NCBI RefSeq assembly: GCF_000724545.1
Contig: NZ_JHBV01000010.1
Span: forward strand, 1-57,415
Length of the DNA: 57,415 bases
DNA from: Aureispira sp. CCB-QB1
GTDB taxonomy: Bacteria > Bacteroidota > Bacteroidia > Chitinophagales > Saprospiraceae
Direction of reading: 5' to 3'
Shown: one piece after another, positions 10,957 to 33,148 of the stretch
Position numbering within the stretch: the stretch's first letter is position 1
Layout: each line of letters starts with the position of its first letter
Notes under the pieces: model-generated
The model's input: the letters and a program-made list of their open reading frames with translations, nothing else
Told to the model about the DNA's origin: nothing
Database searches by the model: none
Program-made: the position numbers and the translations under genes

Positions 10957-10988
10957 TTTGAATTAAAAGTATAATTGGGGTATCTTTG
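10957..10988 (+). promoter_or_regulatory. Promoter of the RHS toxin unit
   Basis: TTTG (10957-10960), 20 bases, TATCTTTG (10981-10988): a full match to the Bacteroidota consensus, 48 bases before the first ATG of the unit. Confidence 0.72.
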
Positions 10989-11036: not shown

Positions 11037-11579
11037 ATGAAATTATCTACAGTATTGCAAATACTATTTGCAATAACTATAACATCATGGATGTTATGGT
11101 TAACTATTGGAAGTGCAACTCAACCTAAAGTTGCCTATGTTCACTCAGAATATCTTTTTGAAAAGTATCTAGGAACAATAGAATCATACAAGACATTAGA
11201 AGCCAAAAATCAACAATGGGGGACTAATTTGGATTCTCTATCCAAATCTTACCGAGCAACATTTGCTAGTTACGAGACCAAGCAAGAAGCACTAGACGAA
11301 AAAGAAAAAGAGGCACTAGGGTACAAACTCCGTCAACAAGAAGCCGCCTTCAATAATTATCATCAATCGGTAGAAAAGATGAAATTAGAGGAAGACCAAA
11401 AATTGACGCAAGCGGTCATTAAACAGATGGATGCTTATTTAAAAGAGTATGCTCTAGAGAATGGTTACGATCTGATTATTGGAGCAGGAGGGACGAGTAG
11501 CTTGGTCTATGGAGGTGAAAATTATGATGTAACTGAAAGTGCTTTAACCTTCATAAATAAAAAATATCGTGGTGAATAA
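11037..11579 (+). CDS. OmpH/Skp family chaperone-like protein
   Basis: 180 residues. An N-terminal hydrophobic segment (about 7-26) acts as signal peptide or anchor. Then VAYVHSEYLFEKY, a long charged coiled coil (about 50-130) and a closing beta/helix part (YALENGYDLIIGAGGTSSLV) give the standard order of the OmpH/Skp family (PF03938). Skp holds unfolded outer-membrane and secreted proteins in the periplasm. Here the gene is the first of a unit encoding several giant exported proteins, so a dedicated holdase role is a reasonable inference. It overlaps the next gene by 11 bases, which implies co-translation. Confidence 0.87.
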   Translation: MKLSTVLQILFAITITSWMLWLTIGSATQPKVAYVHSEYLFEKYLGTIESYKTLEAKNQQWGTNLDSLSKSYRATFASYETKQEALDEKEKEALGYKLRQQEAAFNNYHQSVEKMKLEEDQKLTQAVIKQMDAYLKEYALENGYDLIIGAGGTSSLVYGGENYDVTESALTFINKKYRGE

Positions 11580-12198
11580 ACAACTAGGTGCCATGGCATT
11601 GCTATTTGTGACGTGTTGTCTTTTGGGATGCCATCAGTCCATCAATAACCTAAAGGAGTACTATCAGTATCTCAATACACCAAGTAATGGTTTGATAAAA
11701 TTGAAAAGTATCGGTTCGATGGCATTTAGTATGAAATATTTGCCTTCAGATCTATATCTGTATAAGACCATGATGGATTCTCCTAATCTATCAATAGACA
11801 GTCTAAAAAAGGAATACGACTCTAGTCTTAATTTTATCCTCAAGATAGCGCCTTCCGAAGAATCAGATGCTCAATTTGATGTAATGACAGAGACAGTTAG
11901 CTCTCTGGCTGAATTTCAGGAACAAACGCTTACGGTCAACTTTGATCTGCAAAAATTTATTTACTTAAAGCTTGGCGACCAAAAAATTAAACCTGTTTTA
12001 GTAGAGGCAGAAAATGTCTATGGTTTGACCAAACACCGTTTGATCAATATTGTTTTTGCCAAGGATGAATTCGAGGAACTTTGGAACCGTGAAGACAAAA
12101 TTGATTTGGTCTTTAACGATGAGATTTATAATACAGGGAAACATCATTTTCTTTTTGATAAAAGTGATTTTCTGAGCATACCCAAATTAGAATATTAA
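11569..12198 (+). CDS. Lipoprotein of unknown function in the RHS unit
   Basis: About 209 residues. The start is a GTG (11569 or 11572) overlapping the end of the chaperone gene; an ATG at 11593 would still leave a short signal peptide. The signal ends in the lipobox LLGC. The mature part is mixed alpha/beta, charged and without any motif I know. Position between a Skp-like chaperone and the first giant protein suggests an envelope accessory or anchoring role. No function can be claimed. Confidence 0.75.
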   Translation: MVNKQLGAMALLFVTCCLLGCHQSINNLKEYYQYLNTPSNGLIKLKSIGSMAFSMKYLPSDLYLYKTMMDSPNLSIDSLKKEYDSSLNFILKIAPSEESDAQFDVMTETVSSLAEFQEQTLTVNFDLQKFIYLKLGDQKIKPVLVEAENVYGLTKHRLINIVFAKDEFEELWNREDKIDLVFNDEIYNTGKHHFLFDKSDFLSIPKLEY

Positions 12199-12232
12199 AT
12201 AGAATTAAACCAAATACCTAATCAACTAAATT

Positions 12233-15200
12233 ATGATCCAGCAAACAAGAGCTTTCAAACAGAAAGTTGCTTTCACCCTTGTCTTGTTCATGGTTTTTGA
12301 AGTTACTTATCCTACGGCGGCATTAGCACTAACAGGAGGACCTCAACAACCTGAATTTGAGAAATTTACTCCCGTAGCAACAACCGATATGGTCAATTCA
12401 CTGACGGGTGATTTTCAATACAACCTACCCGTACTCAATATTCCTGGAGCGGACGGGGGAGGTTATGCGCTTTCTTTGTCTTATAATGCCAACCCTTCCA
12501 TGGATTCCGAAGCATCGTGGGTTGGCGCTAATTGGACACTAAACCCTGGGGCTTTGATACGAAGCAAAAGCGGCTTGCCAGACGATTACAAAGGAAAAGT
12601 CAAAGAGTATAATGTGATTAAACCAAGTTTTTCGTTCTCTCGTACTCAGGGAGGTTCGGTAAGTGTTGGTTTTGGAGAGGACAATGCTAACAGTATAGGG
12701 GTGTCTTCAAACATAACTCATACTTGGAATAATTACTCTGGTTATGGAGATTCTAAATACATTGGTCTTTCAACCAATATTCCTATCGACTTGTCGGTAG
12801 GAGTTACCTTTGGAGGAAGGGACGCTACTTTTTCGGCGAATGTAACGATTGGACCCAAGCTAGAAGCCTTTACAAAACAAGCTAAAGACAACTTAAAAGA
12901 TGTTAAAGGAGCTGGTGCTTGGGGAAAAAGAACCTTGTTGAATATAGCGGAATCGAATGAATTAAGATTGAATGTGGGAACATCTGGTCAATTTGGAATT
13001 TTTGGACAAGTAAATAGTTCTGTTGCGGCTTCTGTAAAGCCTCATCGAGCAATGAGTTATACGTTTGGAGGTACGGCACAGGCACTTCTAGGACCCGTTA
13101 CGGCTGCTTATAATAGAAGCGAAACAGCCACCTTGCAGGTCAATAAACCAGTAGTCGATTACCATGCCTATGGGTATATGTATAACCCTAATCATGGTAC
13201 GCATGATTACCATGCTCGACAAGCGACACCAGAACACGTTATGAGTGATTATGGAATAGAAAAAAATTCTAACTTCTCTGCTCGTGATAATATCATAGGG
13301 ATTGTTCATAATAATGCTGATCAATTTAATGCGATTGGTGAGGGTATTTCAGGTTCTTATAGAATGCATCACAAAAAAGTGGGGCATTATTATTCAGATT
13401 GGGCTGCTGACGGTCGATCTAGAAATGTTTCTGTCGTTCCTAATATTACAGGTGGTGCTGGTTTTGTGTTGTCTGAAGGAGCAACAGGAGTTGGTTTTAA
13501 GATTGGTGCTAATTTCCAGTTTGAAAATAGAACAAAAACAGAGTCAAGAATGTGGTTGGTTCGCCCCAATTCTTGGGGAATGGGAACCAATGTGGATGCT
13601 AAGCAATTTGAAGACCCCAGTGCTCCAACCGAATTGCCCTTTTTTAAGGCTAAGAATGATGTTGGGGGAGCTTTGCTTTATGTACATCCAGATCGATTGG
13701 ATGATGCCGTGAGGGAGTATCGTGGTGGTTTTATGGGTACGATAGCAACTTCTGATAATTATGGTAATCCTGTGGTTGATGGTGATTTAATTTCGTTTGA
13801 GCGACCACATGTGAGTCAGTTTATTGAGGATTCAAAGCATGCTGGTAGCGATTATTACAAAGGCGGTTCAGGAAATATGGAATACGTTTTGAATTCGGAC
13901 TTAGTAGGAACGCATCCTAGTTATGATGACATTAGCCCAACAAAGGCCTTTGATAAACATCAACGAGTTTTACAATACTTAGATTCTGATCCATTTACCA
14001 ACACCGCACCAGTCTTGGGAAATGGTTCTGTCGCCAATTCAGAATTGTCAGAGCATATTGCCCAAATAAAAGTTTGGAACCCAAACGGGGTTAAATACAC
14101 CTATGGATTACCTGTTTATGTTCGAGATGAAGCCAATTTCACTTATGGAATCGACTTAAATGCTTCGTCTATTGGGAATGAATATGGTTGTTCTGCACAA
14201 AGACCTACCAAGCTAGAAAATAACAATATTGTGTATCCAATGGTGAGCGAAGGTTCGACAGGAGACTCAGAAAGAAATCTTAAAATCAAGCAAGGGCAAC
14301 AATTAGAAGAATGGTATGCCAACTCCTACTTGATGACTCAAATTACAACGCCTGATTATGTTGATTTGACAGGGGATGGGGCAACAGAAGATGACTTTGG
14401 AGGATATACTCGTTTTGATTATCGACGTTGGGTTAAAAATAAAGATCATAGTGGAGACCATATGAACAATTGGTACCGATTTAGAGCACCTTATACAGGA
14501 TTGAAATACAATCCTGGAGAGCATGCCAAGAAGAGTGATGACATTGGTTCGGTGTCGCATGGTTATCGAGAAATGTATTATTTAAACGGAATAGAGACAA
14601 AGTCTCATGTGGCTATCTTTATTACCAACAAATCAGATGGTTTAGAAGATTTTAAGCAGTTTGGGATTGAAAGTGCCGATTTTAATGGTTCTGGCGATAC
14701 TCGTAATGATGGTTTAGGACAAGTTATGGAAACACCGAATACTGAACCACTGGGGTTTGGTCCTTCAGATGTGAACCGTTCTAGTGTGCCTAGCTATGGT
14801 TGTTATCCTGGTGCTAACTATACCAGAAATGGTTATGCCTTGAATAGCAAAGATGCCAAAGACCTTTTTCAAGATGTAGAAAAATTAGAAAAAATTGTTC
14901 TTTTTGCTAAGAGTGATTTGACAAAACCATTGGTGACTACTTGTTTGGAGTACGATTACTCAGCATGGGAGAATATTCCTAACAATAGCCAAACACAAGC
15001 TTGTAACCCAGGGAATGGTAGCAACAAAGGGAAATTAACCCTTAAAAAAGTTTGGTTTGAATATGAGGGTGTCAGAAAACATAAGGTAAGCCCTTATGAA
15101 TTTGAATACGAATATGCTAAGGTGAAAGGAAGCAATCCATCTATTGCTCAGGAGGTTTTAAATCGTTATCCAGCGATTTTTGATCCTGCGCAAGGAGGAG

Positions 15201-18200
15201 ACTGGCCAACAGCAGGCGCGACAAGTTTGGCGGAAACACCTTATTATAACCAACATGCAATCGACAGATGGGGAAATTTAGCGTATGATGGCGAACAACG
15301 TCGATTTGACTATAAACATTGGCTCTATCAAGGAGTTTATGACAATACACAGGGCTATGATCCCGCTGCTTGGATGTTGAAGCAAATAAAATTGCCTTCT
15401 GGTGGTGAGATTCATATTCAATACGAAGAAAAAACGTACCAAAAAGTACAAGACAAACAGGCTTTGGCAATGGTGAGTTTGTTAGATGGTATTTCTGTAG
15501 ATGATAGCAACGATGGAACCAAGAACAAATTCTACTTAAATTTAGAAGATTTAGGGATGGAGGGCAATACCCCTAAGAAGGAAGAATTGGTGCGATTGAT
15601 CAAAGATTTGTACATGCAAGATTCGGATCCTTTGTCTGTCGATTATGGCTTTAAATTAAAAACCAAAGCAGGGAAAAAGGACGATCGAATTTATTTCAAG
15701 TTTAAATATGAGTTGGAAGAAGGCTCGGCAGAAGAATATATTTCAGGTTATGGAGTTGTTAGAGAAGTTGGGATTGATAATAACAACGATAAAGTATACT
15801 TGTCGATAGGAAATGCTTTGGACAAACCTAATTTTGTAGATCGAAAGGATATACCTCGCCAGTTGTGTTACGACCACATTACAGCGAATAATTATGGCAA
15901 CTATGATTTTGATTATGCTGGTGCAGCCTATGACTTTTTACCTTCTGAAGCCAATTCTCATTCAAGGTATGATAATTTTAAAGCAGAGGTAGAGGGTACT
16001 GGGAATCCTATTTATACTTATGGTAATCATGTAGATGATGCTGGGTTTACGTCCATGCAAACGGACTTTACAACAAAAGAGTATCCCGACTATGCAGCCA
16101 ATAGCACTTGTAAATCGATTAACTATGCCCATTCATTTATAAGAGTTCCTATGGTTACACCTAAAAGAGGAGGAGGGGTTCGTGTTAAACGAGTGTTGAT
16201 GTACGATGATGGGATGGAATCGGGCGATGCTCAGTTGTTTGGAATGGAGTATGACTATGTGAAGGAAGATGGTACTTGTAGCGGTGTGGCAACGAATGAA
16301 CCTGGTGAAGGGAGAGAGGAAAATGCCTTGATTTATTATGAAAAGCGCAAAGATACCAATCCTTTTCTCAAGATATTTGCAGGTGAAGATCGCAAAGAGG
16401 GTGAAATGCCTTATGGTGAGTTTTTGTTGCCTCCGCCATCTGTCAATTATAGTAGGGTGGTTGTGTCTAGTATTTACAAAGGCACTCAACAAAACGAAGG
16501 GTTTTCGGTAAAAGAGTATTTTACGACAGAAGACTATCCGACCAATATGCGTTTTGATGACCCTAAATTTGGAATTTTGGAAGGCTTTAAGAGCGTTCAA
16601 AAAACAGAATTGGGAAGTGGTTTCCCTTCTATTGAAGATGTTCGTTTGAATTATCGTAGAGAATCCTTTTTGCCACTAAGTTTGGGCTTGTTTAATTACA
16701 ATAGACATTTCCGTTGGATGACCCAAGCTTTTATGTTCATTCAGACCGATATGAATGGAAAGGTTAAATCAGAACAAACTTATGCTGGTGTTTATAATCG
16801 GGATTATTTTGCAAACCCTACAGCAGCTACGGATACAGATATTAGTTTGACTTCTAAGACGACTTATGAGTACATTGAACCAGGTGAAAAAGCAAAAATT
16901 TTAACGCACAATGGTTCAAGCTATGAGTTGCAAGAACAGCACTTAGGAGTAGAAGACGATGTGACGATGGCCGCCCAAGCTGTTTATGAAGAATCCTTTA
17001 GTTCGGGCATGAATTTGAGTTTTTTAATTGCTTATTTTGGTGGAATCAGTGTTTCTCCTAGTCTTGGATTAAATTTCTCCTTTGGAGAACGAGGGATGGC
17101 AAGGCATATGACAACTCGAATCTTAAGTTTCCCCTCTGTGCTAAAGTCGATAACGACTGAAATGAACAAATCCATTTCTAAAGTGGAACATTTGGCTTAT
17201 TCTGATTTGACGGGAACGCCAATTTTGACCAAAACTACGGATGGCTACGATCGAAATGTAGTTGTAGGACCAACGGGCGTTCAAGAGCACGATGGCTCAA
17301 TTTACAAATGGAATATCCCTGCTGCTTGGTTTTATAATGAGATGGGGAAAAAATCAGTTGATCCGAATAATACAAACCAGTTAATGGCGACTGTTGGGTC
17401 GGTAACATCTTATGGTGCTGATGGAAATCCTATTGCCTCGAATATTAATACTTGGGCAACTAATCCTACAGGTGTTCTATCTGCTTCCGCAGTAACTTTG
17501 AGCAAAACGGATGCAAATGCAGCCAAGTGGTTCGATGAAACGGCAGGAAGTCAAGATCCTTTGATTCTAGAATATGCTCCAAGTGCTAGCAACCCGCATT
17601 TAGTTGCCGAGCAATTAAATAAGTTGTATCGAGTGTTTGAAACTTATGTTTATGATCCAACCACAGGGGCTTCTTCAGCCAATGACAATGGAACAAACAA
17701 TTGGGGGCAAGCGAATCAAAAAACATATAAGAGTGGTATCAACGACCATTTTACAATGTTTGACTGGACGGGATCGAACCCTGATTGGACTGCTGTTACA
17801 AGAGTCAACAAATATTCGCCCAATGGTTATTCTTTAGAGGAGTTGGACTTGATTGCAGAGGTACCAAGTGCCGCGAAGTATGGCTATAAGAAGTACCTAA
17901 GTACCGCCATTGCTCAAAATGCTACTTATAATACGATTGGTTTTGAAAGTTTTGAGGATGAAAAGTTTGCTAATGCGACAACGCCTCATCCAAGCTTAGT
18001 TAATGGTGGTCATGCAGGAAAATATGCCCTAACGTTAACGAATACTCCCATTACTATTATTGATAATTTAAAGGTAAATAATAGAGTGACAAATCCTGAT
18101 TTAGGGAATGGGTTAATGGTCAGACTTTGGGCTAGAAACGAACTAGTGGGGAGTGCCAATAGAATTAAATTTTCAGGAGCGAAACACATCGATGTTAAAT

Positions 18201-18613
18201 TGACTAGTGGTGGCACTACGTTTTCTCCCAATGCAGGGGAAAAAGTTATAGCTCAAGTAGGAGAATGGTTGTTGTTAGAATATGTATTTGAACCAGCCAA
18301 CTTATCGGCTTCGAATAATATTTACGAGCTAAAAATGAATGTAACAGGTTCTGATGCGAATGGCAATACATTGACGACATTGACAATTGATGATGTTAGA
18401 ATTCAACCCATTAATTCGGAAATGACGACCCATGTTTATGATAACAAGTCCTTTAAGTTAATTGCTACTTTTGGTTCAGAACATTTTGGTGCTTTTTATC
18501 AATACAATGGCGAAGGAGATTTGATTAGAACTTTAATCGAAACAGAAAGAGGAATGAAAACAATTCAAGAAAATCAAGGAAATAGTCCTTTGACACATCA
18601 ACCTCTTAAGTAG
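12233..18613 (+). CDS. Giant exported RHS-associated protein (2126 residues)
   Basis: It starts with a Sec signal peptide (residues about 10-34, ending AALALTGG). Residues about 50-125 hold the conserved block VNSLTGDFQYNLPVLNIPG, SLSYNANPSMDSEASWVGAN and WTLNPGALIRSKSGLPDDYK, the shared N-terminal module of Bacteroidota proteins encoded in front of RHS genes and reminiscent of the SpvB/TcB start. The long middle is beta-rich with many Tyr/Asp-Tyr pairs. The last 80 residues (THVYDNKSFKLIATFG ... FYQYNGEGDLIRTLIETERG) are YD-repeat-like. It has no T9SS sorting domain, Hint or toxin part. I infer a shell component that works with the two other large proteins downstream, as TcB does with TcC. 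The family assignment is fairly sure; the role is inference. Confidence 0.83.
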   Translation: MIQQTRAFKQKVAFTLVLFMVFEVTYPTAALALTGGPQQPEFEKFTPVATTDMVNSLTGDFQYNLPVLNIPGADGGGYALSLSYNANPSMDSEASWVGANWTLNPGALIRSKSGLPDDYKGKVKEYNVIKPSFSFSRTQGGSVSVGFGEDNANSIGVSSNITHTWNNYSGYGDSKYIGLSTNIPIDLSVGVTFGGRDATFSANVTIGPKLEAFTKQAKDNLKDVKGAGAWGKRTLLNIAESNELRLNVGTSGQFGIFGQVNSSVAASVKPHRAMSYTFGGTAQALLGPVTAAYNRSETATLQVNKPVVDYHAYGYMYNPNHGTHDYHARQATPEHVMSDYGIEKNSNFSARDNIIGIVHNNADQFNAIGEGISGSYRMHHKKVGHYYSDWAADGRSRNVSVVPNITGGAGFVLSEGATGVGFKIGANFQFENRTKTESRMWLVRPNSWGMGTNVDAKQFEDPSAPTELPFFKAKNDVGGALLYVHPDRLDDAVREYRGGFMGTIATSDNYGNPVVDGDLISFERPHVSQFIEDSKHAGSDYYKGGSGNMEYVLNSDLVGTHPSYDDISPTKAFDKHQRVLQYLDSDPFTNTAPVLGNGSVANSELSEHIAQIKVWNPNGVKYTYGLPVYVRDEANFTYGIDLNASSIGNEYGCSAQRPTKLENNNIVYPMVSEGSTGDSERNLKIKQGQQLEEWYANSYLMTQITTPDYVDLTGDGATEDDFGGYTRFDYRRWVKNKDHSGDHMNNWYRFRAPYTGLKYNPGEHAKKSDDIGSVSHGYREMYYLNGIETKSHVAIFITNKSDGLEDFKQFGIESADFNGSGDTRNDGLGQVMETPNTEPLGFGPSDVNRSSVPSYGCYPGANYTRNGYALNSKDAKDLFQDVEKLEKIVLFAKSDLTKPLVTTCLEYDYSAWENIPNNSQTQACNPGNGSNKGKLTLKKVWFEYEGVRKHKVSPYEFEYEYAKVKGSNPSIAQEVLNRYPAIFDPAQGGDWPTAGATSLAETPYYNQHAIDRWGNLAYDGEQRRFDYKHWLYQGVYDNTQGYDPAAWMLKQIKLPSGGEIHIQYEEKTYQKVQDKQALAMVSLLDGISVDDSNDGTKNKFYLNLEDLGMEGNTPKKEELVRLIKDLYMQDSDPLSVDYGFKLKTKAGKKDDRIYFKFKYELEEGSAEEYISGYGVVREVGIDNNNDKVYLSIGNALDKPNFVDRKDIPRQLCYDHITANNYGNYDFDYAGAAYDFLPSEANSHSRYDNFKAEVEGTGNPIYTYGNHVDDAGFTSMQTDFTTKEYPDYAANSTCKSINYAHSFIRVPMVTPKRGGGVRVKRVLMYDDGMESGDAQLFGMEYDYVKEDGTCSGVATNEPGEGREENALIYYEKRKDTNPFLKIFAGEDRKEGEMPYGEFLLPPPSVNYSRVVVSSIYKGTQQNEGFSVKEYFTTEDYPTNMRFDDPKFGILEGFKSVQKTELGSGFPSIEDVRLNYRRESFLPLSLGLFNYNRHFRWMTQAFMFIQTDMNGKVKSEQTYAGVYNRDYFANPTAATDTDISLTSKTTYEYIEPGEKAKILTHNGSSYELQEQHLGVEDDVTMAAQAVYEESFSSGMNLSFLIAYFGGISVSPSLGLNFSFGERGMARHMTTRILSFPSVLKSITTEMNKSISKVEHLAYSDLTGTPILTKTTDGYDRNVVVGPTGVQEHDGSIYKWNIPAAWFYNEMGKKSVDPNNTNQLMATVGSVTSYGADGNPIASNINTWATNPTGVLSASAVTLSKTDANAAKWFDETAGSQDPLILEYAPSASNPHLVAEQLNKLYRVFETYVYDPTTGASSANDNGTNNWGQANQKTYKSGINDHFTMFDWTGSNPDWTAVTRVNKYSPNGYSLEELDLIAEVPSAAKYGYKKYLSTAIAQNATYNTIGFESFEDEKFANATTPHPSLVNGGHAGKYALTLTNTPITIIDNLKVNNRVTNPDLGNGLMVRLWARNELVGSANRIKFSGAKHIDVKLTSGGTTFSPNAGEKVIAQVGEWLLLEYVFEPANLSASNNIYELKMNVTGSDANGNTLTTLTIDDVRIQPINSEMTTHVYDNKSFKLIATFGSEHFGAFYQYNGEGDLIRTLIETERGMKTIQENQGNSPLTHQPLK

Positions 18614-18619
18614 AAATAT

Positions 18620-18652
18620 AAATAGTACAAGTGCTAAATGCTTGTACTATTT
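18620..18652 (+). promoter_or_regulatory. Hairpin between two genes of the RHS unit
   Basis: A 12-bp perfect stem (AAATAGTACAAG/CTTGTACTATTT) with a 9-base loop starts 7 bases after the stop of the 2126-residue gene. It is followed only by a mixed T-rich stretch (ATTCCTTTG), so it looks like a leaky terminator or an RNA-processing/stabilising hairpin and not a full stop. Confidence 0.6.
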
Positions 18653-18686
18653 ATTCCTTTGTTTAATCGAGAATAAATTATATATC

Positions 18687-19397
18687 ATGAAAATAATAAG
18701 CTCAATGTTTTGGTGGGGCGTTTGTTTTCTTTTGCTAGGCAATCATACTACTCAAGCACAAGAAAATTTGCTAGAATTGACTCGAAAAGTAACGCAAACA
18801 ACCAGCATAACCAATACGAACAATAATGTCCATTTGAAGTATGTTCAAACTTCTACGACAAGAGACCGAATGGATATCCCTCAAACGACAGAGGTTGAAA
18901 TAAAAAAAAGTGGTAATAAGCAAGTGATGTTGTCAGAACCAATGGAGGTTTATATGGACGACAAAGAAGCTTATGTTGTTTATAAAGAGGCAAAGAAAAT
19001 CTTTAAGATGAAAGATATTCAAGCTGTAAAAGAACAAATGAGTAGTGCCGATATGTCTAAAGCGATGGAGATGCTTTGGGAAACGGCAAAAATTACAGAA
19101 ATAACGCCCCAACATTATAAGAATTCAAGGATTCTTAAAGTAATTCCGTCTTCGAAAATGCAAGAAGTGAGTAAGGTGGCACGTGTTGATATTATTTTTG
19201 AACGAAGTTCTCAACAACTACAAAAAGTAGTTCTATTTATGGAAGAGAAATCTTATCTCAAAAAAATTGAATTCAAATATTTAATTATAGATCAACACGA
19301 ACCTGTACAGATTTTTAATTCTGCAAAATCAAAAATCTATGATGCCAGTCAAAAACTATTAAAAAAATACCAAGGTTATACCATCCAAGAAGTCTAA
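18687..19397 (+). CDS. Small exported protein, possibly LolA-like
   Basis: 236 residues from the ATG at 18687; the upstream extension of the frame runs into the hairpin and is not used. A Sec signal peptide ends TTQAQ. The mature protein alternates beta strands (HLKYVQTSTTRDRMDIPQTT; VYMDDKEAYVVYKEAKKIF) with helices, and the C-terminal strands (RVDIIFERSSQQLQKVVLFM) resemble the half-barrel of LolA-type lipid or lipoprotein carriers. This is a weak pattern match. It lies between two giant RHS-associated genes and could be a periplasmic carrier for them. Confidence 0.72.
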   Translation: MKIISSMFWWGVCFLLLGNHTTQAQENLLELTRKVTQTTSITNTNNNVHLKYVQTSTTRDRMDIPQTTEVEIKKSGNKQVMLSEPMEVYMDDKEAYVVYKEAKKIFKMKDIQAVKEQMSSADMSKAMEMLWETAKITEITPQHYKNSRILKVIPSSKMQEVSKVARVDIIFERSSQQLQKVVLFMEEKSYLKKIEFKYLIIDQHEPVQIFNSAKSKIYDASQKLLKKYQGYTIQEV

Positions 19398-19415
19398 TTA
19401 AAACTAAAATCTATT

Positions 19416-22400
19416 ATGAAATATATTTCATTGCCCATTGTATTAGTATTGCTGTTTTTTAGTAATGCTCAGGGACAAGTACACCAAAGTTGCAGCTCTT
19501 TTGCTTGGGGAGATGTAATTAGTTCTCAACAAAATTTGCCAATTAATATCCCTTCTACGATCCATGATAAAGTAAACTATCTGGTTGGAGAGACAGAAGT
19601 ACAGTTTAAAATTTCCATAGAAAGCAATGGTGTTTATCCCTACGGACGGGGAGATAATTTTTTGCTAGAATTTACCTTGTCGGGGGATATTGTGGATAAT
19701 AGTAACCATTCTGTATTGGGGAGTGCTATTAACCAATCCATTACCTTGAGCCCAACAGAGCCAGAAGCGATTTTTGTTTCACGAATAGGAGCACCGAATC
19801 GAATCAATTTTAATGGTTCAAAAAATCCTTACAATCTAAGTACCAATCAATTGTTTGACATAACGAATTTATTGGTGACGGTAACCAACAGCCAAGGAAT
19901 GACCATTCCACACGCTATCTTAAAATTTGAAGTGTGTTATAACATGGACTTAAAAAGTTCTGTTGGAACAGGGGTCAATACATCAATGGTTTACTCAACA
20001 GTCAACCTAAATAGCATTCCCACCTTAGTACCTAGTAGTGGTTATTATAAATTTGAATGGAATAGTAACCATGTTTACTATCCTAATTATGAGTTTCAAT
20101 TGTTAAAACTAGAAAATACAATTCTAGATCGACCAGCCAATAACCAAGAGTTGCAAACAGAAGTAGATTGGAATCAGGCATTGTCTTTTGTAATTCCAGA
20201 AGAAAAGCTAGCTCAAACCAATGGCATTTATAGTTTGCATTTTAAGCCTTCTGAGGGGACGGGGTATTACCTTTGGAGAATCAAACCAATTGGAAATTAT
20301 TATGACGGAGGCGTTGCCAATAACCAAAACTGGGGAAGTTGGAACACGCCTTTGTATACGGCTGCTTATCTTGCAGGAACCAATACAATTTCCTTGTCAA
20401 GTGCTAGTCTTGTCTATAACGATTGCTTTTTCTACACAGATGTAGATGAAGACAATAATTACATATACAGCAGAACTTTTACCGAAGATGGGCAAGTGTA
20501 TGAAAGCATGACTTATGCCGATAAATTATTGCGTCCAAGACAAACACAGAGCTATTTACCAGCCGAAGATAAAACGTTAATTGGGCAATCTTTATACGAT
20601 CATTTGGGGCGTTCTTCTATTTCTGTTATTCCTGTCCCAGTAGATGGAAAGATGAATGGCTATAAAGAAAATTTTGTTCAAAATCAAGGCGGTGATTTAT
20701 ACGTACAAGAAGATTATGCTAGGGATAATAAAGTCTATGACCCTTCAAAAATTAGTACCAATGGTGCTTATTCTTATTATTCTCCCAATAACCCAGACAT
20801 CACAATTCCCGATGCAGAAGGTTATCCTTTTACAAGAACATTGTATAGTAACGATGGTTTAAACAGAGTAATCGAGCAATCTGGAATTGGTCAAAAACAT
20901 ATGGTTGGACCTATTTCAAGTGGGAGAGGACGCACAACAAAAACAAACATTCAAGTTAGTGTGGACGATGCTGAGTTGGTTTCTATTTTTGGAATAGAAG
21001 CTCCTAATGCCAATCACGTAACTAAGCAGATTGTTATTGATCCGAATGGAACCACTTCTGTTACCTACCTTTCAAAAACAGGGAAAGTCTTAGCAACTGC
21101 ATTAGCAGCAGCTTATGACCCAGAAGGAACTTATCCACTGACGGAGTTAGACAACTCAACAAGCAATGATTTAGTCATTACCGAATCTTTGGATCTTGGT
21201 TCTTATCAAGGCGGTCGTTTTATTTCAAATAAAGAAATTGAACTGGTTCAATCGGTAGGAAATTTACAATTTGAATACCAATCGCCAGGTTGTGGTGTTG
21301 GTGGTCAATTTCCACCTTGTTTGAGTGGTCAAAATTGCAGCTACGAAGTTAAGATTAAAGTCGTTAAATTTTTGATTGACCCCAACGATCCTTTGTTTGA
21401 TATGTTGAATCAAAATGTTACGCAAGAAGTCGTCTATAGCAATGAAACAACACCATTGATTGTACCTACTTGTACCACACAAACAGTTACTACAGGAGTT
21501 GCCTTAGAAAGAGGAACGTATATGATTATCAAAGAGGTAAAACCTCTGGGGACAAGCATCCAAGATGCGATTAATACTTATCAAGTACAGGTTGAAAATG
21601 AGATTATTACTTATATGAACTTGATAGGACTGCTTTTAGATCAAGTTAGCTCAGAATCTGACTGGGTTTATGTGCAACAAGCAGTAGATGAGGTAAACAA
21701 CTACATGACTCACCAAAATACAACAACATTGGCAACAAATCTAGATGCCATTAGTTTGTTTTCGGGGGTATTGACAGGTTTTGCTTTTAGCGATCTTACC
21801 TTTTATTCTGTCAAAAGCCTTAGTTATGACGATGGTCAAACCTCAACGGCTGGCGCTTTTGAAGTCGATAAAATTACCTTGAAGCTGGAGGATTGTTATG
21901 GTAATGAAACAACCATCGCTTCAGAGGTGGAAGCCAAAAAAGAAAAATTTAGAATTACACGTTCGGATTATACTTATAATGGAATTGGATATGATTATCC
22001 GCCATTTTTAGAATATTTCTTGGAAGAAATTGGACTTGAAATTTACAACGATGCGAGTCAACCCAATAGTATTTTTGCCGATTTCTTTGATGGGTATAAA
22101 TACTGGAACGGTAGTCAGTGGACACAAATAGACGAAAATTTTGTGTTCGCTTATATCAATGCCTCTTCTACAAATGATTACAAAGTGCTGAATGCAAACC
22201 AATTTAATCGCATGGTTTGGCATATGTTTAATGATAAATATTATGGTGGACAAGTTCGCTATGTCGGCAGTGCTGATCCTGATAATATATCTGGTAGCGA
22301 TGAGTATCAATATTATGATGCCTCTAGCAATACTTGGTTGCAATATGTCAATTCAAGTTTAGTGGATTATCAATATGATGTGGAAGAATTAAAATCTTGT

Positions 22401-23792
22401 TGGGAAAATGTATTTGGAGTGATGAAAAAGATGTTAGATCCAGATGTCCAGAATGCGATTAACAATGGCATATCCAGCCATTCAACAGATCCAGATGGTT
22501 CCATCAACAATAGCAATGCTGGAGCAGGTTCTTATCAAGATGAGATGAATAAGCGCATACCATGGATTATCAAATTTTTCTTTGGCGATAGTTTAGAAGA
22601 TCAAATGACAAACGATCAAAATAATGGAGGGGTGCAACCTGTTTTTAGCAGTATTCCTTTAAGTGCCAAACACTTGCCGAAGCAGTTTTTAGAATGCACA
22701 GGTTACAAATATGCTAGGATTATAGACCCTGCTTTTGGAGGGACATCAGATTACTCCAATTATGTGAGTACTCTCCCTGCCAATCGCCAACATGGAACGG
22801 TCGCAAATATTAGTTTTAATACTTACGATATGCCTTTGAGTGGTACGCCATCTATTTCTTCTGGTGGTTATTTAGGAATTCCTGGTTATGCGGATGAGAT
22901 GGCAGAGTATTATGGAACGAATGAAAGAGTTGCGCATAATTTGACTTACGATCAACATAGTTTCCCTGCATTTCCATTTACACAAAATCTAGTCTTTGCC
23001 TTTAAATATTATGAGTATTGGGGAAGAACATTTAGTCAACCACATCCATGGAATGGTCAAACAGATAAAGCAGGAAATACTTTGACAGTATCGGGCAATT
23101 TGAACAAACCGTTGAGTTGCCTAATGTGTGAAGAGAGCTACAGTTATTATGAAACAACAACTAGTGCGTGCAACCAATCGTCTTTTGGCCACGATGAATG
23201 GCCTTGGCAACGCAGGAACTTATTCCTACAATGTGCCAAGACCCTAAACAATTCAGGTGATTTGCCCCAAGACGATGATGTTGTAGCGAATGGATCTACT
23301 TTAGAAGTTAATAAAAACTGTTCTGAACTTCCTGATTTAGTTCCAATGATAACTGCCTGTGAGAATGATTGTGAATCGAGAAGGGCAGAGTTTCGACAAA
23401 AAGTTATTCAAACCTTTGAAAATGCTTGCTATGCAGTAGGGCAATGTTCGGCTCAAAACCCGAATTACATTACCATTGCTGAAATTGATGCTTATGTAGA
23501 CGAGATTATTGCTGAATGTCAATCTCATTGTGGAATCACAGAAACACATACCCCAATCCAGTGTTTTGATGCCGCTGGAGTGAGTATCCACTATTGCCAC
23601 GTTGATGTTGGGACAGAATGTGAACTGGTTAATAGGGATATTGCAACCAATTGGCAATTGGAGCTATTTGTCTCTCCTGCGCCAGGATGTCCTAATACGG
23701 TTCCAAGTGTTAGTCCATCGATGACACCTTGTCCTAATCCTTCTGTGAACGAAACGGAGGTGATTCAAGTAAGTATTCCAAGTAACCCATAA
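19416..23792 (+). CDS. Large exported RHS-associated protein (1458 residues)
   Basis: A Sec signal peptide ends NAQGQ. The N-terminal 330 residues are beta-sandwich-like (fibronectin/Ig style, with WNSNHVYYPNYEFQLLKLEN). About residues 350-480 hold an RHS-type block (MTYADKLLRPRQTQSYLPAE; GQSLYDHLGRSSISVIPVPV). The C-terminal 250 residues are rich in Cys (CLMCEESY, CENDCESRR, CYAVGQCSAQ, CQSHCG), suggesting disulfides and so a periplasmic or extracellular place. There is no sorting domain, toxin part or Hint. The gene sits 18 bases after the previous gene and 23 before the RHS toxin gene. I infer a middle piece of a split RHS shell. Homologues in this position are known from Bacteroidota genomes, without an assigned role. 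Confidence 0.8.
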   Translation: MKYISLPIVLVLLFFSNAQGQVHQSCSSFAWGDVISSQQNLPINIPSTIHDKVNYLVGETEVQFKISIESNGVYPYGRGDNFLLEFTLSGDIVDNSNHSVLGSAINQSITLSPTEPEAIFVSRIGAPNRINFNGSKNPYNLSTNQLFDITNLLVTVTNSQGMTIPHAILKFEVCYNMDLKSSVGTGVNTSMVYSTVNLNSIPTLVPSSGYYKFEWNSNHVYYPNYEFQLLKLENTILDRPANNQELQTEVDWNQALSFVIPEEKLAQTNGIYSLHFKPSEGTGYYLWRIKPIGNYYDGGVANNQNWGSWNTPLYTAAYLAGTNTISLSSASLVYNDCFFYTDVDEDNNYIYSRTFTEDGQVYESMTYADKLLRPRQTQSYLPAEDKTLIGQSLYDHLGRSSISVIPVPVDGKMNGYKENFVQNQGGDLYVQEDYARDNKVYDPSKISTNGAYSYYSPNNPDITIPDAEGYPFTRTLYSNDGLNRVIEQSGIGQKHMVGPISSGRGRTTKTNIQVSVDDAELVSIFGIEAPNANHVTKQIVIDPNGTTSVTYLSKTGKVLATALAAAYDPEGTYPLTELDNSTSNDLVITESLDLGSYQGGRFISNKEIELVQSVGNLQFEYQSPGCGVGGQFPPCLSGQNCSYEVKIKVVKFLIDPNDPLFDMLNQNVTQEVVYSNETTPLIVPTCTTQTVTTGVALERGTYMIIKEVKPLGTSIQDAINTYQVQVENEIITYMNLIGLLLDQVSSESDWVYVQQAVDEVNNYMTHQNTTTLATNLDAISLFSGVLTGFAFSDLTFYSVKSLSYDDGQTSTAGAFEVDKITLKLEDCYGNETTIASEVEAKKEKFRITRSDYTYNGIGYDYPPFLEYFLEEIGLEIYNDASQPNSIFADFFDGYKYWNGSQWTQIDENFVFAYINASSTNDYKVLNANQFNRMVWHMFNDKYYGGQVRYVGSADPDNISGSDEYQYYDASSNTWLQYVNSSLVDYQYDVEELKSCWENVFGVMKKMLDPDVQNAINNGISSHSTDPDGSINNSNAGAGSYQDEMNKRIPWIIKFFFGDSLEDQMTNDQNNGGVQPVFSSIPLSAKHLPKQFLECTGYKYARIIDPAFGGTSDYSNYVSTLPANRQHGTVANISFNTYDMPLSGTPSISSGGYLGIPGYADEMAEYYGTNERVAHNLTYDQHSFPAFPFTQNLVFAFKYYEYWGRTFSQPHPWNGQTDKAGNTLTVSGNLNKPLSCLMCEESYSYYETTTSACNQSSFGHDEWPWQRRNLFLQCAKTLNNSGDLPQDDDVVANGSTLEVNKNCSELPDLVPMITACENDCESRRAEFRQKVIQTFENACYAVGQCSAQNPNYITIAEIDAYVDEIIAECQSHCGITETHTPIQCFDAAGVSIHYCHVDVGTECELVNRDIATNWQLELFVSPAPGCPNTVPSVSPSMTPCPNPSVNETEVIQVSIPSNP

Positions 23793-23815
23793 ATAAAACT
23801 CTAAAACAATATAAC

Positions 23816-29800: not shown

Positions 29801-31480
29801 TTCAATGGGATGGAAAAAGATGATGAGGTTGGTAATGGTAACTTTACAACTATGTTTAGAGCCTATGATGCTAGAGTAGCTCGTTGGTGGAGTGTAGATC
29901 CATTATCTTATAAACAAGCATGGATCAGTCCATATGTTGCATTTGATAATAGCCCAATTTGGAAAACAGATACAGATGGTGATTTGCCTATAATTATTGT
30001 TTGGGCGCTCAAAAAACTGGGTGAAGCGGCTTTAGATGTCGTTGTAGACGTGGCAATTCAAGCAGCAATAGAGCATTATATTGGAGGAGTTAACTGGGGA
30101 GATGTAGATATAGATTGGGGAAGTGCTTTGTTTGCAGGAGGAGAGTCTTTTATAAGTAATAAGAAAGCAAAAATTATTGCATCAGCGGGGTATGAAATGT
30201 TATCTTATACTTATAATGCAGAAGATTGGAATGTTGAAGATTTTGTAAAAACAGGAATTTATGGAGGTTTAAGCTCCCTTATTGGAGATAGAGTTGGAGG
30301 CTTAGTGACAAAATATGGACTTCCAAGTGTTGTTAATGGACTAGAGAAGATGGGGGTAAAAAGGCAACAAATCAACCGATGGTTAGGACTCAACGGTTGT
30401 TTTCTAGCTGGAACTCCAATTATAGGAATAGATTCTACTATAAATATAGAAAACATTGAACTTGGCCAACTGGTAACAGTTTCTCTAGATCATTCAGAAA
30501 ATCCTATTGGTTATAATGCATCTCACAATCAAGTTCTAAATAGAGAGTTAATAACTTCCACTTCTTGGAAAAAGCTTTATATTGAACTTCTAAAACCAAA
30601 TAATACAATAACTAAAATAGAGTTATTACGTCCAGATTGGTGGATAGAAAAAAATGTCGATAAGTCAAATAACAAAGTTTATATTACTATACCTGAGTTA
30701 AAGCTTTCTGGTTATGCAAATGTTATTAATATAAGTGAACATACAATTCAGTTAACTCCTGAGTACTTTAAGTATAGGGCTGTAACGGGTAAGTTTACCC
30801 ATATTAGTGACATGGTTATTCAACTAAACTTCAAGAATACCAATACTCTTTTATCTGTTACATCTAATCATCCCATTTGGTCAGAAAGTCAAAATAAGTG
30901 GGTTGATGCCGGTAAATTAAAAATTGGTGAAAAAGTATTCACCAATAATGGAAGTACTACTTTAATAAGAAAGACTGTATTAGAAGGCATTCATGAAGTA
31001 TATAACTTGGAAGTTCATGATGCACATAATTATTTTGTATCTGATATTGGAATTTTGGTTCATAATGCAGTTTCTTGTCCAATTATTACAGAAGGTCTAG
31101 ATAATTTAAAAACAACAACAGCAAGCAAAAGTAATAATTGGACTTTAGATGTAGAAGGAAAATGGCAAAACAAAAAGAGTGGAAGCTCAAATTATGCTCC
31201 TCACAAAATTAATGAGTCTGATGCAGATCAAATAGGGGCAGAGTTTTTGGGGCATTCTTTGGATGAAGCTACAAAAGTATATAAGAAAAATGGTCAATTA
31301 TTAGGATATGTTAGTAAAGATGGTACAAGACGTTATAGGGTTCCTTCTACACACGAAGGTACCCGTAAGATAAATTTAGAAATAGATACCAAAGGAAGTA
31401 ATAGATGGGATGAATTAGATAAGAGGGGGGCTATTAAAAATGAGAATGCCAATCATCACATTGAGATAATAACAGATTAA
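23816..31480 (+). CDS. RHS polymorphic toxin with SprB-like repeats and Hint domain
   Basis: 2554 residues. Sec signal peptide (1-19). Residues about 20-1215 are Ig-like and SprB-type repeats (YTYTWSTGAQTQTITGLSLG; SVTVTDANGCTYT; YTLEITDANGC). Residues about 1340-1960 are YD repeats (QYDYNALGQMVK, SYTLYDDLKRVIEVG, YSYDGNGNLQELSRYG). The RHS core is about 1977-2055 (YYPFGWTMPE, YRFSFNGMEKDDEVG, FRAYDARVARWWSVDPLS). A hydrophobic stretch (2057-2100) and linker follow. The Hint domain runs from GCFLAGTPI (C2195) to YFVSDIGILVHNA (H2416-N2417). The tail (2418-2554) has SKDGTRRYRVPS and ends NHHIEI. It resembles the Ntox17-type pattern, but weakly. Expected action: a toxic tail is packed in the RHS shell and freed by Hint or core cleavage. 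Immunity genes follow after one base. Confidence 0.9.
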   Translation: MKTFLFFAYFFCFSTLLFGAPEPTLDITHICNGGGATINYSYEGEDYYFGWHFEDGEPFLTEPGAGTIEDAPKGRHTVTLYVRGRGGYQSYSYIIDVYDITPTFNWVEGNACNGVSGDATAKITLHNYHSSINYTAYLKNPGGQVLLAANMTSSSHTFTNLPTGNYLVEVQSDDGACSHIKSIAIYDEYLTATVSADVGTCHTLGGSITIDLPDFQAGETYDISVENIDNFQVINYQQTTGNYTLANVAPGNYQITIRKGSCEKVLTVTVEGAGVQAVTSLYLDGGCYWKFNAVMLGGAVATNYTWNLVDASGNPVTTGISYPTVEGDEIYIPTSHNSVAGTLTVTTADGCTYTVNLEYPSTNMFLTSGTPSHTVTDNTCGVSVGSILVDWSMLSPNPTMAVHEVKLYNGPTYQTSLYPNGASDVTFTNLNAGTYTVELHAGGNCNSEGIVEISNIIVAEKERTLKTSNKVICDNGSVAELSVVTSLAANISWGPTGGNPIPNATGGTYTVPSPLISSFYTVTVTENGCTSTKDFEIATMNFPGPEVIKPIRCGSPGTYQLWLPGITSSNPASPFAPYTVTIDGETTPAFGHGQASQPIAIETSGYYPVTITSVNTGCQMTINTYIGTAGLDVDFTEVNPSNCVTNNGSLSASTNSGVGPYTYTWSTGAQTQTITGLSLGATYTITITDAANCTGTGSFTFNTAGAYGTLIVGEPNGPGSIWNNGPACSDNATLLASFDGASPPGPLTYTWSLSNAGNAALATGFGTGTHSVTVTDANGCTYTASKYLNAGWQYPSPQEVEQYIDCANNRFGFYFDYNAYWGCSSVDVEIYEHDASIDGSASGTDAFKTLIHTTTVQQNGSHTVWVPMNNALDPNTRIELRFGSCCNQWYWQPIHNLDFSLPEPTITILPASCTSSGDVQIDFPATSYTAPNQTVWHDGVISNHRTDLPAGTYMVNMQHQQGCSQQELVHIPGASGNPHLIQANSCQQSISLAANNITGGTANYTLKVNGVPTAVGTTLTGIGSYTLEITDANGCVGTEQLTIYEETYNATAQTTAPSCELTDGKIKLHVNNNVSGIASYEWTGPGASSYTGHTLNGLVAGNYTYTVTDNRGCQLSNSVTLPTNTTISLGLFGGCLPQVTNITGGTAPYQLAFEADLTQNPNPTQTSFNLILDGNTTYPYDLNALDQGAYNVYVTDKHGCQVGPYALNTLPTPAPTRNLSLLHMRWKRQEVTATTTNNYKEADIIKDDLAKQSQNFLDNLDALDGLADHCERQTTDQLDAQFEQSLHHYTLYYYNVKDQLVRTVPPAGVDFINNNTGTDLNDLLAFRQGTGPQPSKLIPDHHQVTQYDYNALGQMVKTNTPDKGIGTSLYTEDGLVRFAQDAKQAAAASPTYSYTLYDDLKRVIEVGEMSCATLLTQADVDALNLDQLPASSTKDEHVKTFYSIPHKIAGTPIAYYGLFNKQQRYLRNNVSYTESHQNGVVVTTSYSYDVHGKVEWIRQDIPGLGENYIAYDYDLLTKTVKQVRYNEYSEDRFFHKYTYDEQKRLKETYTSRDGIIWDKDANYNYYAHGLLKRTELGEDKIQGLDYIYTIHGWIKSVNNPLMDQYGLDPSDPNTNDVGKDGYENIFMKDVFGFTLGYYEGDFTRDGLDNLITYSSQQLYNGNVSSWSNGTNVEALAQSLPGFPSPNRESITQRDFTYDEVNRIKTSDFLVSNTPLGDENFPAMFVVPNKYSTSYSYDGNGNLQELSRYGDNNLIDALTYNYGANDLKNRLNSVEDGQGNQGVGDLEALQSYLYDEIGNLTRSTTPIAASGTTEIMNVYWRVDGKVDYVTVVNGGNTSQLNFLYDATGNRVAKVWDPNIANPNDEITTYHVRDASGNILATYDKTYNGTAFEKSLKERTLFGSQRLGIDKKSITFIGTQDIVRSGVSILEGLQIRTVSDKLFELSDHLGNVTTTVSDYKLKTGTGYEANLLSYQQYYPFGWTMPERQANVGNYRFSFNGMEKDDEVGNGNFTTMFRAYDARVARWWSVDPLSYKQAWISPYVAFDNSPIWKTDTDGDLPIIIVWALKKLGEAALDVVVDVAIQAAIEHYIGGVNWGDVDIDWGSALFAGGESFISNKKAKIIASAGYEMLSYTYNAEDWNVEDFVKTGIYGGLSSLIGDRVGGLVTKYGLPSVVNGLEKMGVKRQQINRWLGLNGCFLAGTPIIGIDSTINIENIELGQLVTVSLDHSENPIGYNASHNQVLNRELITSTSWKKLYIELLKPNNTITKIELLRPDWWIEKNVDKSNNKVYITIPELKLSGYANVINISEHTIQLTPEYFKYRAVTGKFTHISDMVIQLNFKNTNTLLSVTSNHPIWSESQNKWVDAGKLKIGEKVFTNNGSTTLIRKTVLEGIHEVYNLEVHDAHNYFVSDIGILVHNAVSCPIITEGLDNLKTTTASKSNNWTLDVEGKWQNKKSGSSNYAPHKINESDADQIGAEFLGHSLDEATKVYKKNGQLLGYVSKDGTRRYRVPSTHEGTRKINLEIDTKGSNRWDELDKRGAIKNENANHHIEIITD

Positions 31481-31481
31481 T

Positions 31482-32288
31482 ATGTATATAAGAAGAGAAG
31501 ATGTTTTAATTATCCCTGAAAATGAGTGTGACTCATTTTCAGGTTTTTCTAATAAATCTTTTGAAATTAAGATAGATAAATTCAAAATACATGAAACCTT
31601 TTCAGTCGATTTGTTCGATTTTTTTTACTATAAAGAAAAATATTCTAAAAAGTATCCATATTTTTTCCTTGTAAGTTCTTTGCCTACTTTTTTTGTTAAA
31701 AAGTGGGATAGTGCAAAATTTTGGAATCTTATTTTAAATGAAATTGAAAGTGTATTGCCCCTTGAGTTCAATACTTTAGAAGAAGTGAATACTTTTCTAT
31801 TTAATTTGGAACCTATAATGGCCCTTTATTTTACAGATTGGCATGACTTATACTGGCCTATTGACCCAAACGCAAATCCAGAATTGCTAATAAATGGTGA
31901 AGAAATAGTCTGCAAGCCAATTTATGCTTATGAAGGAAATGGAAATCGATACAATTCTCAAAATAAAATAGAAGATTTACAAAAATATCGTCCCCAAAAG
32001 GATAAAGACTGGGAGTTGTATGTTTGTTATGAGTTGACATTTCCTAATAATGAAACTAGAGAGTTTTATATTACTTATACTTCTTGTTCTAAAATTATTG
32101 AATACTATGAAGGATATTTTAATAATAATGAAGATGAAATAGTAAAAACGTATAAACATTCTATAGCAGCTACTTATTCTTACAATATACTAGTAGAACA
32201 TCTCGATAACATAGCTGCTCTTCTTGATTCATCTTCTTCTGTAAAGCAAGGAATGAAAAGGATAGGGCATTTTTTTGATGTGTTATAA
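31482..32288 (+). CDS. Candidate immunity protein 1
   Basis: 268 residues, with its ATG one base after the stop codon of the RHS toxin gene. It has no signal peptide or membrane segment, so it is cytoplasmic. It is acidic and rich in aromatic residues (DLFDFFYYKEKYSKKYPYFF; WHDLYWPIDPNANPELL), a usual look for immunity proteins. I recognise no family. Position directly behind a Hint-toxin tail is the main reason for the call: immunity genes normally hold this place. The AT content rises from the toxin tail onward, in keeping with exchange of toxin and immunity as a cassette. Confidence 0.72.
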   Translation: MYIRREDVLIIPENECDSFSGFSNKSFEIKIDKFKIHETFSVDLFDFFYYKEKYSKKYPYFFLVSSLPTFFVKKWDSAKFWNLILNEIESVLPLEFNTLEEVNTFLFNLEPIMALYFTDWHDLYWPIDPNANPELLINGEEIVCKPIYAYEGNGNRYNSQNKIEDLQKYRPQKDKDWELYVCYELTFPNNETREFYITYTSCSKIIEYYEGYFNNNEDEIVKTYKHSIAATYSYNILVEHLDNIAALLDSSSSVKQGMKRIGHFFDVL

Positions 32289-32318
32289 ACATAAGTGACG
32301 ATATTTTTAAATAAAAAA

Positions 32319-32768
32319 ATGACTACAATTTTTTATAAAATAGATTACAGCAGTTTAGCAAATGAAGATGCAATTCTTAAGTACTCAAAGAGGGATTTAG
32401 GAGAAATGGTTTTTATTGGAGATATTTTAATATTAAATGAGAATACCAAGGATTATTTAGTCCTTAAAGAGATTAGTTTATTTCGATTTTTCTATCAATG
32501 TCTCCATGCTTTGCATGAACTAAAATCGACTAACGAATCAAAATTTTCAGATCCATCCAATTATTATGATATAAAAATGAGAATAAATAAAGGGATGCTA
32601 GAGATTAAAGATATTGATTCTGTGCAAGTCAATTATAAGGAGTTCTTAAAGGAGTTTTCTATAGTATGGAAAAATTTTATTAAAGAGTTAGAGTTAGCTT
32701 ACCCTAGAATTATTAACAACAAAAAATACCTTGAATTAAGACAAAGCTGTTTTGATGATTTGCCTTAA
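32319..32768 (+). CDS. Candidate second immunity or accessory protein
   Basis: 149 residues from the ATG at 32319, which has an A-rich leader; a GTG at 32295 is possible. Cytoplasmic. The N-terminal half is beta-rich (FYKIDYSSL, LGEMVFIGDILILNENTKDY), the C-terminal half helical (YKEFLKEFSIVWKNFIKELE). Family unknown, though the layout is like small immunity proteins of the polymorphic toxin systems. It could be immunity for this toxin, or an orphan kept from an earlier tail. A strong terminator follows 130 bases later. Confidence 0.65.
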   Translation: MTTIFYKIDYSSLANEDAILKYSKRDLGEMVFIGDILILNENTKDYLVLKEISLFRFFYQCLHALHELKSTNESKFSDPSNYYDIKMRINKGMLEIKDIDSVQVNYKEFLKEFSIVWKNFIKELELAYPRIINNKKYLELRQSCFDDLP

Positions 32769-33148
32769 TCTAGTGTGCTGTTTGTGTTCGTATTAAGCAT
32801 TACATTCAGTTAACAGACGATTGTCCTATTATAGGATAAACTGTCTTCCAAATCAAAAAAAGGAACAAGCCTTACTCAAACTTGTTAAAACAAATTAAAT
32901 GATAGCGTTAGGATTTTTCCTAACGCTATTTTTTTTAAGAAAACCCGAGAAATTTAAATAAAAGGAAGAAAAACTATTTCATTGCAAGTATTTTGTCCTA
33001 GTCTGTTCAAAAAATATATTGAATAGATTTTTGAATGCTGAAAAATTAGTATTTATTGTGACAGGTTGTACGATTGTGACAATACACCATAAAACAACTT
33101 TCATTTTAGGAATCAATCACCTTTGTCTGTTCTAAGTACGTTTATTGC
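32769..33148. other. Intergenic region with the terminator of the RHS unit
   Basis: No toxin remnant could be recognised here. Besides the terminator at 32902-32936 there is a small palindrome CCTATTATAGG near 32825 and, at 33056-33083, the partial direct repeat TTGTGACA. I see no gene. Confidence 0.45.
32902..32936 (+). terminator. Terminator of the RHS toxin unit
   Basis: A perfect 12-bp stem (ATAGCGTTAGGA/TCCTAACGCTAT) with a short T-rich loop is followed by eight or more T. It is a standard factor-independent terminator and marks the likely end of the 21.7-kb transcript. Confidence 0.92.

Follow-up and report, generated by a model that had tools for sequence, protein, structure and literature searches.

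A candidate Tc/Rhs-like toxin operon with its own putative envelope-helper genes in Aureispira and other Bacteroidota

Contig NZ_JHBV01000010.1 of Aureispira sp. CCB-QB1, 57,415 nucleotides long and analyzed here as one window (contig C10 of genome G000, which spans 7.37 Mb in 184 contigs and is 99% complete), carries eight adjoining genes, A to H, in which three giant proteins (C, E and F) are encoded together with an OmpH-family protein (A), a lipoprotein (B) and a protein with a predicted LolA fold (D). Our analysis points, on balance and with modest confidence, to a polymorphic toxin of Tc/Rhs type made through Sec, assisted in the periplasm by A, B and D, delivered to competitors from the outer membrane, and neutralized in the producer by G and/or H. 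The unit would thus be one member of a phylum-wide family of Sec-made Tc/Rhs-like toxins. Within such a system C, which resembles Tc-B and SpvB proteins, and E plus F, which are RHS proteins resembling Tc-C, would each pass the inner membrane on their own and combine into a hollow shell enclosing the tip of F, to be freed by cleavage at the Hint domain and RHS core. The Skp/OmpH-like A, the LolA-fold D and lipoprotein B may form a dedicated set that handles these parts in the periplasm and at the outer membrane, where the shell would be exported or displayed and would deliver its tip to competing bacteria, with G and/or H protecting the producer.

Conservation of the unit across Bacteroidota

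The chaperone-type genes are genuinely associated with the genes for the giant proteins, and chance does not account for it. In searches of 296 genomes of the phylum, which scored at most 10 candidates per genome for B, 2 for C and 17 for a C-terminal domain, ct, described below, relatives of B were found at 21 places in 17 genomes, including the own genome's three, and each of the 21 has a match to C no more than 200 bp away, 20 of these C matches coming from the 296-genome search and the 21st (G000:C141) from the search of 60 relatives described below. An OmpH gene adjoins 18 of these places, the exceptions being G185:C81, G329 and G098, and B was detected at 13 of the 18 strongest C places. 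Homologs of the chaperone and lipoprotein thus do occur beside the RHS genes, which agrees with the first-pass annotation of this DNA, where both had been assigned to the RHS unit. Among 60 relatives (own genome included), C found matches in 11; A, searched in 20 of the 60, found matches in 17, and its seven best all adjoin C genes. The order OmpH, lipoprotein, C, (D) and E/F recurs on contigs C17 and C141 of the own genome, four times in a genome of the same genus, where one copy sits on an 87-kb contig, and again in other families. The 87-kb contig (L063/L064, G003:C3) belongs to a three-contig assembly and is perhaps a plasmid. The unit on C141 (L075/L076) has a fused E/F and a ct-ended protein upstream; that on C17 (L073/L074) has E and F split, is cut short by the contig end, and is preceded by a peroxidase-domain protein.

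An alignment of C was also used to scan a sequence collection, where at least 531 stretches encode a relative. The best 80 of these loci, six of them from one metagenome-assembled genome (MAG), were kept, and they come from Bacteroidota and one Chlorobiota MAG. We analyzed 77 named loci, leaving out L104, L129 and L141, which were taken to be the same records as G046 contigs. The Skp-like chaperone, proposed earlier as a part of the unit, holds that place in many loci but is not universal: among the 66 named loci with at least 2.5 kb of upstream sequence, OmpH is present in 39, the lipoprotein in 46, both in 39, and a protein ending in ct or in a second C-terminal domain, c2, in 34. Downstream, where 66 loci likewise offer 2.5 kb, D is present in 47 and E/F in 61. 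The 20 unnamed stretches with C, in which overlapping stretches of one unit were counted apart, gave OmpH in 8, the lipoprotein in 10 and ct/c2 in 7 of 14 with 2.5 kb upstream, and D in 11 and E/F in all of the 14 with 2.5 kb downstream.

Gene products and layout of the operon

The predicted model of C aligns with the B subunits of Tc toxins and has both an SpvB-like domain, in the conserved N-terminal part of the protein, and a shell fold; from the aligned model ranges, about 300 residues (126–440) appear to be inserted relative to Tc-B. This likeness emerged from fold comparison only, as did that of D to LolA: profiles of the two proteins searched against PDB sequences found neither Tc-B nor LolA. 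Foldseek alone ranked FMO proteins first for C, with E values from 0.003 upward, and did not find Tc-B. A weak CBM-like stretch lies near the C-terminus, and across the 15 members of the C alignment weak Pfam matches appear in single members only (E 0.002–0.008), with Diphtheria_C matching one of the 15 (E 0.0019). Short matches to the SpvB-like N-terminal motif (model positions ~21–90) were also seen in many other Bacteroidota open reading frames (ORFs), mostly of ~900–2,600 residues.

The helper candidates are smaller. The Skp/OmpH-like identity that the first-pass annotation gave to A is confirmed by PF03938 (74.1 bits against a cut-off of 32.4, E 1.7e-20), and A may keep the giant proteins soluble in the periplasm. 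B has an invariant Cys21 at a lipobox-like place (alignment A3). With its predicted LolA fold, D is likely a second periplasmic carrier. It shares this fold with the LolA proteins of P. gingivalis and B. uniformis and with LolA1–3 of F. johnsoniae, in so far as the available part of PMC11885536 covers them, but is ~10% identical to them, and its gene sits inside a toxin operon, flanked by the two giant genes assigned to the shell. None of B, C, D, G and H matched Pfam or NCBIfam above cut-off. In four loci of one MAG, zinc-ribbon-like small proteins with CxxC motifs stand at the lipoprotein's place just 5' of C (L119 9546–9950, L124 9572–9958, L126 9345–9731 and L165 9571–9954).

E contains DUF6443 (PF20041, 37.5 bits), and F matches PT-HINT and Y_Y_Y above their cut-offs and SprB just below its own, together with Rhs_assc_core and an intein C-terminal motif. 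F thereby has the RHS core, Hint-type domain and variable C-terminal domain of an Rhs polymorphic toxin, and, as an RHS protein with a variable tip, also resembles Tc-C; the earlier description of this 2554-residue protein as an RHS-Hint-toxin is borne out for the RHS and Hint parts, and the variable tip is a candidate toxin. In many relatives E-like and F-like parts form one ORF. When four such fused ORFs were compared, E ~225–743 matched ~229–718 and F from ~1264 onward matched ~1453–2432, and F residues ~1–1260 gave no blastp match in these four. E probably corresponds to the N-terminal half of an RHS protein that is split here.

The variability of F is concentrated in its tip. Against the closest relative of the same genus (L060), identity per 100 residues is 24–51% in residues 1–1200 and 42–72% in 1201–2000, then 24% in 2001–2100 and 2–18% beyond. 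GC content falls from 37–40% in the body of F to 33% in the Hint domain and tip, and is 28.1% in G and 26.6% in H (window mean 36.2%). Moreover, orphan RHS-plus-tip cassettes lie 3' of an intact unit in L066 of G003 (12450–13514 and 17204–18457), the first agreeing with the end of the intact upstream gene at 98.6% identity across 348 residues and the second at 62% across 128. Together, tip variability, the fall in GC and the orphan cassettes are marks of a polymorphic toxin. No PADLOC match was found for F, G or H, the tip is not covered by any Pfam or NCBIfam match, and G had itself as its sole match in the 296 genomes, with none in the other 295. Beyond its position, H likewise had no match above cut-off in Pfam, NCBIfam or PADLOC.

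The ORF listing of the window (Table 1) confirms the compact, same-strand arrangement of eight genes with one overlap that was described at first pass. A and B overlap by 11 bases, and the gaps are 34 (B–C), 28 (C–D), 18 (D–E), 23 (E–F), 1 (F–G) and 6 (G–H) bases. For D an in-frame ATG, which lengthens the C–D gap to 73, gives a better signal peptide by eye than the TTG start and is preferred; the signal peptides of the unit's proteins were all assessed by eye. The earlier promoter call is upheld in part: a match to TTTG-N20-TATCTTTG, which we take to be the Bacteroidota-type promoter consensus, does stand 48 bases 5' of the ATG of A, but the window holds two copies of this pattern where chance predicts 2.8, so that position is its sole support. 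The strong terminator at the other end is confirmed. Absent from the first-pass annotation is a second hairpin, nearly as stable, with a 13-bp stem that begins 34 bases past the stop of F and covers about codons 12–21 of G; it could act as a terminator or attenuator ahead of the candidate immunity genes. Terminator-like sites number four, both hairpins included, in a 4.5-kb stretch, against 1.7 in shuffled sequence.

Table 1. Features of the candidate toxin unit (positions in the window)
Feature	Position	Strand	Basis
Promoter motif TTTG-N20-TATCTTTG	10957..10988	+	exact pattern match; position
Gene A, OmpH/Skp-like periplasmic protein, 180 aa	11037..11579	+	PF03938
Gene B, lipoprotein, 209 aa	11569..12198	+	invariant Cys21; family adjoins C
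Gene C, Tc-B/SpvB-like shell protein, 2126 aa	12233..18613	+	Sec signal by eye; residues 34–1190 modeled
Gene D, LolA-fold periplasmic protein	18687..19397 (ORF from TTG 18642, 251 aa)	+	predicted fold
Gene E, DUF6443 protein, 1458 aa, probably N-terminal half of a split RHS protein	19416..23792	+	PF20041
Gene F, RHS-Hint-tip protein, 2554 aa	23816..31480	+	domain matches; comparison with relatives
Regions of F (residues)	N-terminal with Y_Y_Y and SprB-like ~1–1260; RHS ~1264–2060; Hint 2320–2418; variable tip 2419–2554
Gene G, candidate immunity protein, 268 aa	31482..32288	+	position
Terminator-like hairpin within G	31515..31543	+	-18.3 kcal/mol, z -5.25, then TTTTT
Gene H, second candidate immunity protein, 157 aa	32295..32768	+	position
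Intrinsic terminator	32901..32930	+	-20 kcal/mol, z -7.6

The outer-membrane step and competing explanations

Several points weigh against the reading of the unit as a delivered toxin with dedicated helpers. The linkage counts come from A and B profiles built from C-adjacent copies, and for B from at most 10 candidates per genome, so that distant, unlinked relatives of B may be missed. OmpH is absent from 27 and the lipoprotein from 20 of the 66 named loci, and thus neither is indispensable; one MAG contributes six of the 27 and records taken as Chitinophagaceae another eight, together about half. Contact of A, B or D with C, E or F is a supposition, and the unit encodes no outer-membrane pore. 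The model of C is of only moderate quality (287 of its 1157 residues fall below pLDDT 50), and Foldseek alone returned no match for it at E <= 0.001. D, at 32.3% GC, is as low as the tip, which makes GC a weak sign; the case for toxin activity and immunity draws on position and variability, and neither the tip nor G nor H could be assigned to a known family. Finally, the hairpin within G argues against a simple single transcript.

The proposal that this was an exported RHS toxin unit keeps its core, namely a coherent unit with OmpH and lipoprotein linkage, is strengthened by the Tc-B-like C and the predicted LolA fold of D, and loses the qualifier self-contained: no gene of the unit explains the outer-membrane step, and the upstream ct/c2 protein of 34 of the 66 relatives is missing here. 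The absence of a type IX secretion system (T9SS) sorting domain from the large proteins, also stated at first pass, is confirmed. Profiles of Por_Secre_tail type, ct and c2 found no such domain in A to H, and the first of these matched only a gene at 1–936 among the window's ORFs of at least 90 residues.

The toxin reading leaves the form of this step open, and T9SS-linked export and SpvB-type export are two forms that it could take. The first, a tentative possibility, holds that the shell crosses the outer membrane through type IX secretion, carried along by a partner that has a sorting domain; this partner would be the surface protein that many loci encode upstream or, for this copy, one encoded elsewhere. 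In many relatives the upstream protein does end in ct or c2, in about half of the 66 named loci as counted above, and in L102 it also carries LRR, LamG and SprB repeats. In pairwise profile comparison ct and c2 matched Por_Secre_tail with 77% and 82% probability, as against 0.1–0.2% for OmpH, the lipoprotein and D, although the sorting-domain profile comprises 12 sequences, four from PF18962 matches and eight picked by eye, and the two domains show no match between themselves (0.2%). Significant ct matches end within 23 residues of the protein end. Of 11 ct matches in the 296 genomes, the five strongest (E below 1e-8) are each located immediately upstream of a unit, yet two of these five were in the ct model by construction, the six weaker ones lie elsewhere than units, and in L156 and L159 a ct-ended protein stands downstream of C. 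SprA was present in all 28 C genomes tested, and in 49 of 49 C-positive against 180 of 247 C-negative genomes (Fisher p 9e-7, uncorrected for ancestry), but many of the 49 have a short N-terminal match only, and the link may reflect ancestry, since 17 of the 20 listed SprA-negative genomes (67 in all) belong to one family. The lack of any sorting-type domain in A to H itself also speaks against this route.

A somewhat less probable form of the step is self-export, in which the SpvB-like N-terminus of C would carry the shell over the outer membrane and periplasmic chaperones alone would be needed. In Photorhabdus, according to the available part of PMC3789776, the C subunit reaches the periplasm and the B subunit is required for outer-membrane passage, with the SpvB-like 361 residues of TcdB proposed as the device; the conserved, SpvB-aligned N-terminal part of C would fit this role. 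However, the apparent insertion in C falls at residues 126–440, the Photorhabdus B and C subunits have no signal leader in that account whereas Sec signals are apparent here, and no mechanism is known.

A family of upstream proteins of ~700–980 residues (L150 6318–8591 and ten relatives), several of whose 11 members have ends that look like outer-membrane barrels by eye, was considered as a general part of the unit and rejected, because a search of 20 genomes with one query found none in the own genome, one in G012 on a contig other than that of the C unit, and a weak match in G003.

Other explanations concern the function of the unit as a whole. That it builds a surface-anchored RHS adhesin or matrix complex, not a delivered toxin, with the tip a by-product of RHS recombination, is improbable: the Y_Y_Y and SprB-like stretches of F, the CBM-like stretch of C, the lipoprotein partner and the LRR/LamG/SprB repeats of one relative's upstream protein would suit such a role, but the Hint domain, polymorphic tip, small variable downstream genes and orphan tip cassettes would not. 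Still harder to credit is that A, B and D have a general part in envelope biogenesis and merely share a transcript with the toxin, for although OmpH and LolA families are general periplasmic factors and the same genomes hold other OmpH genes, B was found solely beside C in the genomes searched (21 of 21 places), and many named records have versions of A and D in the same positions.

Relation to known systems and wider meaning

The protein parts, Tc/Rhs shells, Hint-type domains, OmpH and LolA, are all of known kinds. With Tc toxins (the TcB–TcC cocoon, as in TcdB2–TccC3 and YenB–RHS2) the unit shares the SpvB-like part and shell fold of C and an RHS protein with a variable C-terminal tip in a separate neighboring gene; it differs in its apparent Sec signals, adjoining envelope-helper genes and, here, split E/F. 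The TcA channel is a defining part of Tc toxins. Its profile (PF18276) had no match in the own genome and matched in 2 of the 28 C-positive genomes, and the unit is therefore not classed as a Tc toxin, working instead like the BC half of one. The two TcA-type matches (G003:C1:3151146–3151994 and G183:C9:35416–36282) lie in frames of ~3,100 residues away from the C units.

The unit also resembles the polymorphic toxins of the TcdB/TcaC route, which combine a signal peptide with SpvB, RHS, HINT and a variable toxin and for which Bacteroidetes are among the groups listed; the accessible portion of that account mentions no OmpH or chaperone, and a lipoprotein once (Zhang et al. 2012, PMC3482391). 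The TANFOR toxins of Bacteroidetes, in the part of PMC7073777 at hand, are likewise large, mostly Sec-exported and hypothesized to leave by T9SS, with SprB/CTD proteins nearby. Unlike them, C, E and F gave no TIGR02542 match at E <= 0.1; one relative's upstream protein reached E 0.07 and 13 bits against a cut-off of 67. Our literature search, mostly of titles and abstract openings, found no description of Tc/Rhs shell genes linked to a private lipoprotein and Skp-like and LolA-like proteins, and no paper on DUF6443. A Tc census (PMC7861908) mentions neither Bacteroidetes, Flavobacterium, chaperone nor lipoprotein, and the available parts of PMC11885536 and PMC13103446 do not mention Rhs.

C and its relatives, encoded in at least 531 stretches and forming a large protein family that Pfam does not cover, are here placed in the Tc-B fold. 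A recurring operon, which also occurs in deposited type strains, groups the shell genes with those for two apparent periplasmic carriers and a lipoprotein. The records of Flagellimonas pacifica DSM 25885 (L093) and Ekhidna lutea DSM 19307 (L117), for instance, carry OmpH, the lipoprotein, C, D and E. It has long been asked how Tc-type and Rhs shells get out of a Gram-negative cell, and PMC3789776, in the part available, treats this for Photorhabdus. We tentatively suggest that these units may represent a separate Bacteroidota class of Tc/Rhs systems with a dedicated periplasmic assembly line and a T9SS-linked or SpvB-type outer-membrane step. If true, the shell would be built outside the cytoplasm with the aid of a holder of Skp fold, a carrier of LolA fold and a lipoprotein private to the unit, and the toxin, with three large chains that here total ~6,100 residues, would be made and exported in a new manner. 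The units also offer a concrete lead on whether T9SS can carry toxins that have no sorting domain of their own.
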